A stretch of 64,000 nt of DNA, from positions 4,278,001 through 4,342,000 of the forward strand of contig NZ_CP101466.1 of assembly GCF_024362385.1 (NCBI RefSeq). The letters run 5' to 3'. Shown piece by piece: positions 36,489 to 43,101 of the stretch; the first letter of the stretch is position 1; every line of letters starts with the position of its first letter. Below the pieces are notes generated by a model, which saw nothing but the letters and a program-made list of their open reading frames with translations, searched no databases and was not told the DNA's origin. The DNA is from Arthrobacter sp. DNA4. Lineage in GTDB: Bacteria > Actinomycetota > Actinomycetes > Actinomycetales > Micrococcaceae. The position numbers were made by a program, and so were the translations under genes.

Positions 36489-36682
36489 GGGAATGCCTTT
36501 CAAGAGGACGCCATTGTTCTCTCGTGGAACAGCGCGGACCCAGCATCCCGCAGTACCTATGGGATTTATTCAGGCGAGGTGTGGTTGGTTATCCCAGATT
36601 GGCACAACGAAAACACCGGCCACCACTGCCGGGACAATAAATCCACCAATTTGTTATTCAGCGGATATTCCGCGGTGTCCGG
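36489..36682. other. Short AT-richer gap after jetC where jetD is expected
   Basis: About 190 bases, with a visibly more AT-rich stretch (about 36555-36675: TATGGGATTTATTCAGG, GACAATAAATCCACC, TTGTTATTCAGCGGATATTCCGC). No jetD or fragment of it is readable on either strand. It may be the junction of a deletion. Confidence 0.5.
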
Positions 36683-39600
36683 TTACCGCAGGACGATATC
36701 CACCGGGTTCGCCTCCGACCGCCACACGCCCTCCTCGCCGGCCCGGGGACGGATCACCGGCGCGGTGAGGACACCGGAGCGGTTGGTGCGCCGGTCCCGG
36801 AGGATTTCGGTGACGGAGCCCAGGTGCCGGGACAGGTCGATCACGTTTTCAGGCGCGGCCAGCAGCAGCTGGAAACCGAATTCGTGCAGTGCCTTGATCC
36901 CGGCGCCGGCGAACTCCTCGGACGCGAGCACAAAGGCCTCGTCCATCATCACGGTGCCGTAGGTGGTGAAGCCCTGCTCGGCGATGCCCAACTGGTAGCT
37001 CAGGGCCGCGGCCATGATGAACGCGGTGAACCGTTGCCGCTCGCCGCCGGACATGGACCCGGTGTCGGCGTGCATGAACACCTCGGTCTTCTTGCCGCCA
37101 CGCGGACCGGTGACTTCCCGGTGCTCCTTGCACTGGATGAACAGGTGCCCGCGCACGTCCAGCACCTCGGCCCGCCATCTTCGGTCCTCGGGCGCCTGGG
37201 AGCCAAGCCGCTTCACCAGCGTCTCCAGGGATTTGTAGCGGGCGGTGAGCTCGCCGTCGTCGTCCCCCTCAGCGCCGGATCCCTCCGCCCGGGCGGCCTC
37301 CGTTTTGGCGGCTGTGCCGGGCCTTCAGCGCGTTCTGGATGGCGTCCTTGAACTGCTTGGCCGTGGGCGGCAGTGTCTGTTTGATGTCCAGCTCCAGGTA
37401 GCTGCCTTCGTGGAAGTTCACCTGCGACAGGATGCCGTTCAGGGGCAGTATGCGGCTGGTGATGGAGCGGCGTTCCTCGTCCAGCAGGTGCAGCAGGGTG
37501 CTGAAGGACTCGTGCGTGCGCTGGTTGAAGAACTGGCGGAACTCCGCCTCCTGCGCGGGCAGGCCGTCGTTCACGATCGCGTGGTAGCGCGCCTCGAACT
37601 CGCTCGCCGCGCCGATGCTGGTGCCGTGGTCAGCAGAGATGGCGCTGCCCCACTCACGCACGAAGCCTTCGAAAATTCGGGTAAGCCGCTCCGCCGTCGA
37701 CTGCCCCCGCGACTCCGCGGTGTGCAGTTCACCCAGCAGCGCGGTCCGCACCCGGTTGGCCAGGTTGTCCAGCTCGTGCATTTCCGTGATCTCGCCGAAG
37801 TCGGCGAAGTAGGGTTCCAGGGCTTTAACGGTGGCGTCCGACGGCGGCGCCTCGGCCAGGCGGTCACGCGCGGCTTCCAGCAGGCTGTCGGCAGCCGTCA
37901 GCTGGCGGTCGAGTGCCTTGTATTCGCTTTGCAGGACCGCTGCGGACTCGGTACTGGACTGGTGCTTGTGCCGGACTTCCTCGATGGTGGCGCGGAGCGG
38001 TTCCAGGTCCGCCTGTGCCGCCAGGGCATCCTTGAGCCGCTGCTCGATCCGCGCCAGCTCATCGGCGGCCACCGCGGCAGACACCTGTTCCCAGGGACGG
38101 TCGTCTTCCGCGATCCGGCGCAGTGCGTCAAGCTGCCGGCTCATGCCCTGGTGCGAATCCTCCCGGCTCTGCGCCAGTTCGGCGGCCTTGGCCACGTCCT
38201 GCCGGAGGTCCTCCACCTGCCCGGCCACGAGCTCCAGCTTGGCCGCATTGTCAAAGCCCAGGACGTAATCCTGGCGGCTGGTGAACCGGTCATCCTTCTC
38301 CACCGTGTGCCGGTTGCGCTTGACCACGCCGCCCAGGCTGAGGCCCTTGTCCAGGGCGGCCAGTTCGTCCGGATCCTCCACGCAGGGGTAGGCGAAGTCC
38401 AGGGCGATCCGCTCGCGGACCCACTCGCCGGCCTCAGCAGCCGCACCCGAGGCGAGGATGTCCAGCTTGGTGAGCAGGTCGCCGTCGCGCGCGTCCTCCA
38501 CGGCGAGCGCACCGCCGGCCAGCGGCTTGGAGACATCCACTGCCCGCAGCGCGCCGCGGACGTTGTGGTCATTGAGGTAGCGGGTCACGGCGCCGAAGTG
38601 CTCGCCGGGAACCAGCAGGGTGGTGGCGAGGTTGCGGAGCGCACGTTCGGCAGCGGGGCGCCACCGTTCCTCCCCGTCGGCGAGGTCCATGAGCTCACCG
38701 GCGAAGGGCATGCGGTCCTCGGGGATGCCGGTTGCGGCGGCAATGGCGGCGCGGTTTTCGATGCTCGACGGCGGCAGCAGGGATTTGCGCGTCTTCAGCG
38801 AGATGAGTTCCTGCTCAGCCGCGGCCAGTTCGCGTTTCCGGGTGGCGTGCGCGTCGAACGCCTCGAACCGCAGCTCCTGCAGGGCCTGCGAATCATCCTT
38901 CAGCTCGGCGGACCGGACCGCCGCCTGCTCGTGTGCCTGCTCCCAGCCGGCGGCGCTCCACTCGAGCTGCAGGCCGGCGTCGGCCAGTGCCTGCTGGGCC
39001 GCCTCCTCCACCTGTTGCCTGAGTTTCAGGCCAACCCGGGCGTTCTCCAGCGACTGCTCGATGGCCGAGATCGCGTTGCCGCCCTGGTTGTTGTAGTCGG
39101 TTTCCAGCTGCCGCAGCTCCTTGGCCAGGCCGTCCCGGACCGCACGCTCGGCGCCGAGTTCCTTGGCCTTTGCCTGCGCCAGCTCGCGGAAACGGACCAG
39201 GGTCTTCTGGTGGACCGTGACGGCCAGCTGCTGCCGGTACGCCTCGAACTCCCCGCCCACCAGCTCACGGAGCCGGTTCGCGTCCAGCAGCGACTGCGCG
39301 TATTCCCGGTTCAGTCCCGGGACCGGAGCCAGCTGGTCCCGCTGCTGCCGGACGTCCTCGAGCCGCTGGCGGATCGACATCAGGTTGCTGAACTCCTCCA
39401 CCACATCGTCAGCGGCGGCCAGCGTTGCCGGCGCGTCGAGGACCTGGTCGCGGAAGAAGGTGTTGACGCTGCCGCCGAGGCCCTTGCCGGCCTGGATGAC
39501 GCGCAGCAGGGGCAGCGCCTGGTCCGAGCTGATCCCCAGCAGGCGCCGGAACCGCTCCGCGAACGCCTTGTGCACGTCGAACACCTGGGCGTGCGGGAAG

Positions 39601-40139
39601 AGCGCCTCCAGCGCGCCCTTGGTGAAGCGCTTGTCCGCGATGCCCTCCACCGCCTCAAGGTCCAGGGGCACGTTGTCGATCAGGTAGAACCGGCCGACGC
39701 TGGACTCGGTGCCGTTCTTGGGCAGGTCGAACAGCGCCGAGACCGTCACCCGCGTGCCGGCGGCGTTATCGAACGTCAGGGCGACGGCGGACCAGGTGGC
39801 ACCCGGGCGCTGGAACGCGCTCGCCGAGCCCTCGCCCACGGCCTTGTCCCCCACCTTGCCGCGCATGTACGTGAAAGTGGTCCGCTTGTCCTCCACGGCA
39901 CCCGAACGCTGCGCGGCGGCTTCGTTGGACCGTGGCCGGGCATCGAACACCCGCAGCATCGCATCGAAGAGCGTGGACTTGCCCACGCCGGAGTTGCCCG
40001 TCAGCAGGGTGCCGTTCCGGTCCACGTGCATCGTGTGCGCGCCGTGGAACGTCCCCCAGTTGACCACCTGCACCAAGGCAAGCCGCATCTGTCCCGGGTT
40101 GGTCACGTCCCCCAAGGGAAGCATGCTCGCGATTGTCAC
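36683..40139 (-). pseudogene. jetC: JetC (MksB/MukB-like SMC ATPase of Wadjet), split by a frameshift
   Basis: Two consecutive frames together give one JetC of about 1150 residues. The first (GTG 40139 to TGA 37269, 956 aa) holds the N-terminal ATPase lobe with Walker A GNSGVGKST (48-56), NWGTFHGAHTMHVDRNGTLLTG, and long coiled coils with a hinge. The second, in the +1 frame (to 36683), holds the signature SMSGGERQRFTAF and Walker B YGTVMMDEAF. The shift must lie between 37272 and 37324: the first frame stops at 37271-37269 and the second has a TGA at 37327-37325. The region encodes a hydrophilic linker (AEGSGAEGDDDGELTARYKSLE in the restored frame). One extra base explains it. JetC would be the DNA-translocating motor. 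Either a real mutation or an assembly error; if real, the ATPase is broken unless the halves associate. Confidence 0.85.
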
Positions 40140-41089
40140 TGTCCTGCCTCCTTAGCTGTGGTTGGGAACGACGACAGCGCTGCTGCCCCCGCCCCTTCGC
40201 CGGGCAGCATTGGTCCCGCGGACCATGCGCCCCGCTCCGACAGGCCCGATGCCACTCCCGGGGCGGCAGCGCCGTCGTCGTCATTCTCGTCCCCACCTTG
40301 GGCGTCAAACTCCAACAGTGCTTCCGTGCCTGTGGGGTCCGCCGAGGCTGCTACCAGGGCCTCGATGTGGGCCGGGATGTCGCCGATGTTTTCGAACGGG
40401 AGGGCCAGGGGCAAGGCGTTGGAGATGGTGTAGACGTCATCCAGTCCGGTGGGGAGCAGGAGCTGGCGGGCCAGGAGCTTGGTGATGGCGCGGGTGACCA
40501 CGTCGGAGTCGCGGAGGGCGTCCTGCTGGCCGGCGGGCTGGTAGTGCGCCACCAGGTCCGTGATTTCCTCGCGGGTGATGGTGGGGTCCGTCTGGGCCGT
40601 GACGTGCCGGTCCAGCAGCAGGCGCAGCCGGAGCAGCACGATGGTTTCCACCCGGCTGAGGGCGCGCTGCTGGCGCAGGATGCTGGACCGGGTGCTGCCG
40701 CCGATCACCTCCGGATCCACGGGGCGCAGGACGGCGATTTTCCGCTCATGGTCCAGCTGCAGGGTCAGGAACAGCTCGGAAAGGCGGCTGCGCAGGATCA
40801 CCTGGTTGTCCAGCAGCACTGTCCAGAGCTTTTCGTCCCGGCCGCCGTCAATGTAGGGGCCCTTGAGGAGCTTCACCAGGGCCTGCCGCACCTTCATCGA
40901 CAGGACTCCGGTGTCGCCGGGGAACAAGGCGGCTCCGTCGACGAAGGTGTCGCGGGGTGAAACAGGTCCGGGGTACCCAGCGCCCGGTGCCGTCCTGGTT
41001 TCAACCTGCTCAACCAACGACTCATCCAGGTGTTCTCCAGCCGGGGTTTCCGCGGACTCAACTACCGGCGTCGTGCTTTCCTCAGTCAT
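40136..41089 (-). CDS. jetB: JetB (DUF4194, MksE/MukE-like subunit of Wadjet)
   Basis: A 317-residue protein of the DUF4194 family, the KITE-type winged-helix subunit that links kleisin and SMC in Wadjet/MksBEF condensins. Conserved core: [58 protein letters not shown], then [18 protein letters not shown]. The acidic N-terminus and Gly/Ala-rich C-terminus are variable tails. It overlaps jetA by 8 bases and jetC by GTGA, so all three are one transcript. Confidence 0.9.
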
Positions 41090-42539
41090 CTGAATCCTTT
41101 GCGAGCGTGACCACCGGCAGGTAGGCCCTGCGGGTGGAGCCGTCTATCTGTTCGAAGTCCAGGCCATCCCAGGCGCGGCGGTCGAAGTCCGCCCCTGCGT
41201 GCAGGGCTTCCGAGAGGAGGGCGCGGATGGTGTTGATGTGCTGCTCTTCGGGCGGCAGCTGGTGCCAGGCATCGGCAAGGGTTGCAGCTCCTGCCATGGC
41301 CGCCCGGACTACCGCCGGTTTGGCCTTGCCGGTCCGCGGCGAGCGCACTCGGTCCGAGTCCGTGAAGGCGATGGGATCGGCCAGGCGGGGCGGTGCCGCG
41401 AACTCGTCGGGATCGAAAAGCTTCACCATGGACAGGGACTCGAAGCCGGCGTTGTAAAGGACCGGCCCGGGTACCAGGCCGGGGCGTTCCCGCTCGTACG
41501 GGAGGGAACGGATGGCCTGCTCCGCTTCCCGCAGGACCTGCCGCAGCCGGACCGACTGGCGGAAGTCGTCGCTCTGGACGTAGGTGTTGAGGCTTTCGCT
41601 GAGCTTGCCGTAGATGCGCTGGATCTGGCTGTGCTGCTGGCGGAGCTCGGCCACCAGGTTCTTCAACGTTTCCCGGTCGTCGGGCGAGAGGTCGTCGGCG
41701 AACTGGCGGCTCAGCACCTCGCCGATGGCCGACCGGAACCTCAGCTGCTGCTGCGGATCCTCCAGGAATGCCGTGAAGGACCGGAACGTCCTGCCCTCGG
41801 GACTTTGCCGAAGCCGCTTGTCGGCCTCCAGGACCTGCGCCATGGTGGCGCCCTTGGTCAGGGACTCCTCGATGATCTGGTTGCGGAGGCCGCCCACCAA
41901 TTCCTCGATGCGGTCACGCATCTTCTTGTAGTCCGCGGGCAGGCTGGCCGCCAGGTCCAGGATGTTTCCGGCGGCCTCCACCGCTTCATCGTCATCCAGC
42001 AGGCCGTCAAACTCGCCCGTACTGATGTCCTGGATGAGCTGCTGCCGCTCTTCGATTTCCTCTTCCAGGGCCTCAAGCCGGGCGCTCTGGTCCGGGTTCG
42101 TTTCGTTGGCGAGCTTCTCCACGTCGCCCAGCAGGGTGCCCAGGCGGGAGCCGTTCAGGGTGGAACGTTCGCTGGAGAGGCTGTCCAGGAAGGCGAGCAC
42201 GCGCGCTGCCGGCTCGGTTGCCTCATAAACGATCTGGCCTGACTGGTTGCGGCGGGTCAGGAACTGCCGCCGGGTCCATTCGTCGCCGAAAGCCTTTCCG
42301 TTGGCCCCTCCCCCCAGCCCGGGATCCTGGCGGCGGAGCTCCTCAAGGAAGGAGTCGACGTCGGCATGGAATTCCTCGAGCGGAACCTGCGGCCGGGTGC
42401 GGGTGAAGGAAGCCTGGAGCACCGCAATCACCCACGGCGCCGAACGGGTCAGGGCCCAGGCAGGCCCCTTGGTGAGGAGTTCGAGGTCCCGGAGCCGGGC
42501 GCTGATGGCGTCAGCGGATGACCTGGCGGAGCGGGGCAC
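41082..42539 (-). CDS. jetA: JetA (DUF3375, MksF/kleisin-like subunit of Wadjet)
   Basis: A 485-residue DUF3375 protein, the kleisin-like (MukF/MksF) subunit. N-terminal winged-helix part: [45 protein letters not shown]. The middle is strongly helical (coiled coils about 130-330). The C-terminal part has [22 protein letters not shown]. The frame is open to 42611; GTG 42539 is taken because AAGGAG sits just upstream and the extension is unlike the family. First gene of the operon jetA-jetB-jetC; no jetD follows. Confidence 0.9.
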
Positions 42540-42798: not shown

Positions 42799-43101
42799 AT
42801 GCAGTTCGATCTAAGCTCAGTGGAAACGTCAACTTTGGTCTTCATTGGGACACTGGTATTTGGTGCATTATTGGCCGCCTTCGTCCTCACGGCCGGGCTG
42901 GTTGCCCTGGTAGTGCTGGGGGCAGGGAAGCTCACCTGGATGGTGGTGGCCAATACCCTGATGGCGGTGGTCCACGGAATCAACTCCGCCTGGGACAGGC
43001 TGGTCCACCGCGCCTCGGCCGTCGAGCTTCCCGGCGATTTCCAGCCCCAGCCATCCCCTAGCACCGGAACCTACCCGCGGGTAATCTTGAGGGACAGCTG
43101 A
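42799..43101 (+). CDS. Small membrane protein, unknown function
   Basis: A 100-residue protein with GGGGG four bases before ATG 42799. Residues about 12-58 are hydrophobic (LVFIGTLVFGALLAAFVLTAGLVALVVLGAGKLTWMVVANTLMAVV), probably one long or two membrane segments, followed by a polar tail (PGDFQPQPSPSTGTYPRVILRDS). No family recognised. It is 61 bases upstream of the acyl-CoA dehydrogenase gene and may share its transcript. Confidence 0.7.
   Translation: MQFDLSSVETSTLVFIGTLVFGALLAAFVLTAGLVALVVLGAGKLTWMVVANTLMAVVHGINSAWDRLVHRASAVELPGDFQPQPSPSTGTYPRVILRDS
43072..43083. promoter_or_regulatory. Perfect palindrome TACCCGCGGGTA
   Basis: Twelve-base perfect palindrome overlapping the 3' end of the small membrane protein gene, 80-91 bases upstream of the acyl-CoA dehydrogenase ATG. 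This class of palindrome precedes fatty-acid degradation genes in several actinobacteria. Operator role is inferred. Confidence 0.5.

Follow-up and report, generated by a model that had tools for sequence, protein, structure and literature searches.

We analysed a 64,000-nucleotide stretch of the single-contig genome of Arthrobacter sp. DNA4 (NZ_CP101466.1, positions 4,278,001 to 4,342,000), referred to here as the window. It carries the jetA, jetB and jetC genes of a type I Wadjet system, which encode a kleisin, a KITE subunit and an SMC (structural maintenance of chromosomes)-like ATPase, and no gene for JetD, the nuclease of such systems. With a probability of roughly 0.7, we interpret this locus as a disarmed, vertically inherited, MksBEF-like JetABC set, which would serve as a second condensin beside Smc on the chromosome. 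The genome also encodes an ordinary Smc (894 bits), and JetABC is therefore a second condensin by type. The initial annotation had called the locus a Wadjet defence operon. This label lacks support, since the defining effector of that activity is absent. Its alternative, that the nuclease was lost and a housekeeping-like MksBEF remained, is supported at the level of the lineage by conservation and descent, while the housekeeping function itself is a prediction from sequence.

Absence of JetD

The initial annotation saw no trace of jetD at the locus, and this proved correct for the window and for the whole 4.56 Mb genome. The profiles of JetD_C and DUF3322 (PF09983 and PF11795) had no match in the genome, and in the control both of them matched in Corynebacterium glutamicum. 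An alignment of 20 JetD proteins gave nothing in the genome at E≤1, in a search run without a positive control. When 40 JetD proteins were used as tblastn queries, neither the window nor 63 related loci gave a hit at E≤0.01, and the three positive-control loci were recovered. The usual place of jetD in a Wadjet operon is occupied here by a non-coding gap without strand (36,489 to 36,682). The distance from jetC to the following lipoprotein gene, first given as 190 bases, is 179–194 bases according to the lipoprotein start chosen, and the span of 36,489 to 42,539 assigned to the operon covers the jet genes but also takes in this gap.

The suggestion that the nuclease acts from elsewhere was not borne out, as no JetD was found in the strain's own genome and there is no JetD_C match at all in 60 of the 100 genomes of the genus that bear DUF3375, the JetA family. 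JetABC could instead partner with another nuclease that is encoded elsewhere and is unrelated in sequence to JetD, which would be beyond the reach of homology searches. In one locus of another genome (L110), an open reading frame (ORF) of 483 amino acids with no Pfam match lies 4 nucleotides behind jetC, in the place of jetD (L110:9639-11087). Against such a partner, the genes that follow jetC in the genus are not nuclease-like (a lipoprotein gene, then siderophore-uptake genes), and a search for five neighbour genes of the genus in 21 loci from other genera of the family yielded a single weak match. We consider this explanation improbable. The genome that holds L110 (G286) has no JetD_C match, and its 483-amino-acid ORF may encode some other effector or a JetD that has diverged.

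The "IFDR" motif of JetB, which contacts JetD, was uninformative as a test of docking, being often missing even in the JetBs of JetD-bearing loci (from crude ORFs). The residues that are conserved with JetD and lost without it are scattered and form no docking patch.

Distribution of JetD-less loci

DUF3375 was found in 100 of 101 genomes of the genus, the sole exception being a genome that is 68% complete, and JetD_C was found in 40 of the 101. Our count used 138 of 146 DUF3375 places; the eight that scored below 140 bits were dropped, among them fragments in G093 and G056 that are not near JetD. Of the 138 places at or above 140 bits, JetD stands within 10 kb of 38; the other 100, where it does not, are distributed exactly one to each of the 100 DUF3375-bearing genomes. 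This indicates that JetD is not missing through local decay and that its absence is long established in the lineage. By hand count, 34 of these 100 genomes hold an additional JetA locus with JetD beside it. Four places below 365 bits have JetD (in G086, G042, G090 and G029); the first three (loci L083–L085) fall outside the clade of the window, and that of G029 was kept out of the trees. Some JetD_C matches that are near full length stand without a DUF3375 place (G027:C5:6956, G095:C1:4574880 and G031:C165:34188), and these may be orphan JetD genes, contig ends or parts of another Wadjet type.

In the family (149 genomes; 103 of 104 places used), JetD accompanies 36 of the 103 places and is missing from 67, and no place below 365 bits has it. 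Two JetD-less places score above 365 bits, one in G577, where the place is near a contig end and JetD is on another contig, and one in G607. In the order (198 genomes; 85 of 87 places used), JetD is near 37 of the 85 places and missing from 48, the figures outside the strain's own genus being 34 and 41. Few genomes of the phylum have DUF3375 (7 of 197), and JetD_C occurs in 12 of 197. Among named database records we used the best 80 of 151 loci; all of these 80 are titled Arthrobacter, Pseudarthrobacter or Paenarthrobacter, and the nearest is Pseudarthrobacter sp. C4D7, whose JetA is 99% identical. JetA relatives were present in 6 of 72,556 plasmid records, the two from Arthrobacter being replicons of 1.35 and 0.75 Mb.

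Descent of the JetD-less sets

The window belongs to a single clade whose 26 rows come from 11 genera of its own family and are all without JetD. This clade has a support of 100 in both trees, that of JetC (97 rows, built with FastTree) and that of JetA (107 rows, from a quick IQ-TREE run), and its subclades follow the genera for the most part. Both trees are unrooted. They include 7 of the 42 core loci of the genus and leave out L086, L087, L135 and the duplicate rows of the family coded f11 (L088–L096), and the JetC tree is also without L129 and the incomplete f11 rows. An earlier tree contained 12 of the 42 core loci and was without L086.

The presence or absence of JetD requires 12 changes on either tree, and well supported branches force at least nine of these changes. 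Elsewhere than in the clade of the window, families f11, f13 and f21 show them, as does a large group drawn from f8, f12, f14, f18 and f21, and some of them may be gains of JetD. The f11 loci (L097, L098 and L152–L161) have no JetD, and their jetA, jetB and jetC are separated by kilobases of DNA that include transporter genes, in some loci those of a sulphur transporter or of siderophores. We saw jetA in all 12 of these loci, jetB in 10 and jetC in six, the other stretches ending before jetC. Such scattering fits genes that are kept for themselves rather than a transferable cassette. These patterns lead us to a tentative suggestion, to which we give a little less than an even chance, that type I JetABC in Actinomycetes has lost its tie to JetD more than once and become a vertically inherited chromosomal condensin. 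On this view the condensin is nearly universal in the Arthrobacter genus, occurs in ten related genera as well, and had independent origins in other families, f11 included.

A divergent pair of JetD-less JetABC sets on a long branch was seen in genus g73 of family f21 (L162 and L164), and one of the two genomes also carries a full JetABCD (L165).

Selective constraint and conserved motifs

By simple pairwise estimates, the ratio of nonsynonymous to synonymous substitution rates (dN/dS) with the five closest relatives used was 0.02–0.04 for both jetA and the 5′ part of jetC. It was 0.02–0.04 for the neighbouring acyl-CoA dehydrogenase gene and 0.09–0.22 for four neighbouring siderophore-uptake genes. 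In five pairs of JetD-bearing Wadjets of the genus, the ratios were 0.06–0.08 for jetA, 0.07–0.16 for jetC and 0.13–0.22 for jetD. The constraint on jetA and jetC is thus strong, and among close relatives it is like that on the metabolic neighbour. The values suggest that it is stronger than in the armed loci, among close relatives alone. Walker A and Walker B are kept in all 59 JetCs of the clade that are longer than 900 amino acids, and the ABC signature is kept in 58 of 60.

Retention of all three core subunits and of the ATPase motifs would also be expected if the complex restricted plasmids without cutting them. JetABC would then sense small circular DNA by loop extrusion and afterwards silence, sequester or mis-segregate the plasmid. 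Smc5/6, which acts on viral episomes, offers a loose parallel. It speaks for this explanation that in Wadjet the sensing of DNA shape and size has been attributed to JetABC and not to JetD (PMC10586767). However, plasmid suppression in Bacillus subtilis has been reported to need all four subunits (PMC10586767), and in C. glutamicum the deletions of mksB, mksF and mksG were described as alike in their effect on plasmid copy number (PMC10123090). Moreover, a single JetD-less place in every DUF3375-bearing genome of the genus is unlike the patchy occurrence of JetD-bearing loci. Restriction without cutting therefore appears unlikely to us.

The jetC gene of strain DNA4

In this strain jetC is not the single gene described in the initial annotation, which missed that it consists of two reading frames. 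The 5′ part (37,269 to 40,139, minus strand; 956 amino acids) contains Walker A (GNSGVGKS) and the coiled-coil region, and stops at 37,269 soon after the frame change. The ABC signature (SGGERQR) and Walker B lie in another frame, the 3′ part (36,683 to 37,216, minus strand), whose first listed start codon is a GTG at 37,216. When the window was aligned with four relatives, a gap of five alignment columns, out of frame, was located near 37.31 kb, in the poorly conserved linker that joins the coiled coil and the C-terminal head.

A full-length jetC was found in 39 of the first 40 genus loci and, after two were added, in 41 of 42. It was also found in 20 of 20 loci from other genera of the family, three of which (genus g220) lie outside the clade of the window, and in 78 of the 80 named loci, a set that overlaps the genus set and whose full-length genes include that of Paenarthrobacter aurescens TC1. 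The break is a strain-level event and not a trait of the lineage, and a programmed frameshift was rejected, since nearly all relatives have one single frame. Genus loci L038, L194 and L227 are also without a full-length jetC frame; L194 is in many pieces, which suggests an assembly of low quality.

The initial annotation had raised the possibility that the locus is decaying. This would mean a defence locus that has lost jetD and whose jetC is now eroding, and it agrees with the frameshift in this strain and with the lack of a full-length jetC frame in L038 (one of the 42 genus loci) and in two of the 80 named loci. For the lineage it does not stand against the intact jetC of the other relatives and a dN/dS far below 1 in all nine comparisons, and we regard it as very improbable; decay is applicable to single strains alone.

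An SMC protein without its C-terminal head should not hydrolyse ATP. As the head of JetC lies in another frame here, the JetABC copy of this strain probably does not function, unless a sequence error accounts for the gap. An error of assembly or base calling, which would leave JetABC intact here and which concerns only the state of this copy, is possible but doubtful. The sister genome G034 has an intact jetC, with a JetC 99% identical to that of the window over the 5′ part, and the change sits in a GC-rich, poorly conserved linker. On the other hand, the gap is longer than one base, it is no homopolymer step, and the genome is 99.98% complete. The comparison with the sister marked 7 of the 67 ORFs as split between it and the window, two of these being jetC and its antisense shadow. 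The latter is an open frame of 1062 amino acids on the plus strand (37,245 to 40,433) with no Pfam match, very likely a shadow frame of high-GC DNA.

Points that weigh against the proposed chromosomal role of JetABC

Several observations speak against our interpretation. The break in jetC means either that this strain can do without the complex or that its assembly is in error. With four more distant relatives, the dN/dS of jetA and jetC rises to 0.06–0.10, which overlaps the values of the JetD-bearing Wadjets, and jetB is looser (0.13–0.27). The JetD-less lineages show no clear parallel loss of a patch of residues in JetA or JetB. For 11 of the 49 JetD_C places in the genus, DUF3375 lies nowhere within 10 kb; several of them are fragments, but at least three (in G027, G095 and G031) are near full length, and it is conceivable that JetD acts in trans in a few genomes. 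The JetD-bearing loci L134 and L136 are nested in another clade that is mostly JetD-less, which could mean that JetD was regained there or that it was lost several times around them. Since the trees are unrooted, loss of JetD rather than gain is an assumption.

Gene identities and locus organization

The order jetA, jetB, jetC proposed in the initial annotation is the canonical one, with all three genes on the minus strand, and its overlapping starts and stops were confirmed, jetA and jetB sharing 8 nucleotides and jetB and jetC sharing 4. SMC, kleisin and KITE genes stand together in one operon. Profile searches also agreed with its family assignments. The jetA gene (41,082 to 42,539; 485 amino acids; frame open to 42,611) encodes the mksF-like DUF3375 kleisin, matching PF11855 (E 3.7e-88) and PADLOC JetA1 (PDLC00447, 1.2e-263); its product matches the solved JetA chains 8q72 and 8dk1 at about 1e-23. 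The jetB gene (40,136 to 41,089; 317 amino acids) encodes the mksE-like DUF4194 KITE subunit, with matches to PF13835 (9e-29) and JetB1 (PDLC00476, 6.2e-156). The 5′ part of jetC matches PF13555 (AAA_29, 7.9e-20) in its N-terminal part, JetC1 (PDLC00518, 3.4e-281) and the solved JetC 8dk2 (7.4e-51), and the 3′ part matches PF13558 (SbcC_Walker_B, 1.4e-18). The nearest PDB sequences to the JetA and JetC of the window are the solved Wadjet JetA and JetC. Terminator-like hairpins between 36,400 and 43,200 were no commoner than in shuffled sequences.

Genomic neighbourhood

Beside jetA lies a divergent gene (42,799 to 43,101, plus strand) for a 100-amino-acid protein that looks membrane-like by eye and has no Pfam match. 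It is present at all 42 genus loci and all of the best 80 of the 151 named loci, and in the 21 loci of other genera there was one weak match to it. The acyl-CoA dehydrogenase gene is syntenic in 40 of 42 genus loci and 78 of 80 named loci. Downstream of jetC, some loci have the lipoprotein gene (15 of the 42 genus loci and 23 of the 80 named ones) and most have siderophore-uptake genes, a binding protein being encoded at 38 of 42 and 57 of 80. An ancestral synteny with siderophore genes was rejected, as these occur among the scattered jet genes in 5 of 12 f11 loci but in none of the 21 loci from other genera of the strain's own family.

A motif which we take to be DnaA-like stands at the contig start in 14 of 20 genomes, and in these 14 JetA lies 4.1–8.8% of the genome from that start. 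We rejected a special link of the JetABC locus to the origin, because the steady distance may be due to synteny alone.

Comparison with known systems

JetABC has been described as a dimeric, loop-extruding SMC motor whose JetD nuclease fires once a small circle has been fully extruded (PMC10586767, PMC12647877). By analogy, in the JetD-less lineage a JetC dimer would be bridged by the JetA kleisin with its JetB KITE subunits, and this complex would bind DNA and extrude loops with ATP. As JetD is missing, extrusion that is finished or stalled would cut no DNA, and the complex would be free to work on the chromosome, as MksBEF does in Pseudomonas aeruginosa. This suggests that a former anti-plasmid weapon may now be tending the chromosome.

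Compared with Wadjet type I, also known as MksBEFG (JetABCD; EptABCD), the window has the same jetA-jetB-jetC order and the same DUF3375, DUF4194 and JetC1 assignments. JetA and JetB are present, as is JetC with Walker A, signature and Walker B, in two frames in this strain. The difference is that in type I systems JetD follows jetC, and type I occurrence is patchy. One survey reported Wadjet in 42% of actinobacterial genomes (PMC10482375). If our interpretation is true, catalogues that count JetD-less loci as Wadjet defence overstate Wadjet. The genomes that have both armed and unarmed JetA loci (34 of 100) offer a direct test bed within the same cells.

In Paenarthrobacter lasiusi S21, a PADLOC table lists a Wadjet consisting of "JetA, JetB, JetC" as a defence system (PMC11719660, Table 6). 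Like the set of the window, it is without JetD, and it stands beside a separate full type I system; it is very probably the same locus type. The accessible passages of that paper contain no comment on the missing JetD or on conservation (PMC11719660). Beyond this table, we found no description of a conserved JetD-less type I JetABC in Arthrobacter or its relatives in the open-access literature. Nuclease-free MksBEF is already known from Pseudomonas.

MukBEF replaces Smc-ScpAB in its host, and unlike that host the strain has Smc. In C. glutamicum, MksBEFG has its nuclease and has been reported to act on plasmids (PMC10123090, PMC7083940), while the nuclease-free MksBEF of P. aeruginosa is a precedent for a chromosomal condensin (PMC7485682). 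Like the locus of the window, the P. aeruginosa system combines genes for an SMC protein, a kleisin and a KITE subunit, has no nuclease gene, and coexists with Smc, a trait that is typical of MksBEF without strictly defining it. Unlike it, the window is from a different phylum, its complex is a prediction from the genes, and its subunits are type I JetA, JetB and JetC by profile, the match of JetB to the Pfam MksE profile (PF21980) being below threshold (25.3 bits against a cut-off of 27). In anatomy and evolution, the locus fits the case of P. aeruginosa MksBEF rather than that of C. glutamicum MksBEFG, and by this comparison its complex would act on the chromosome.

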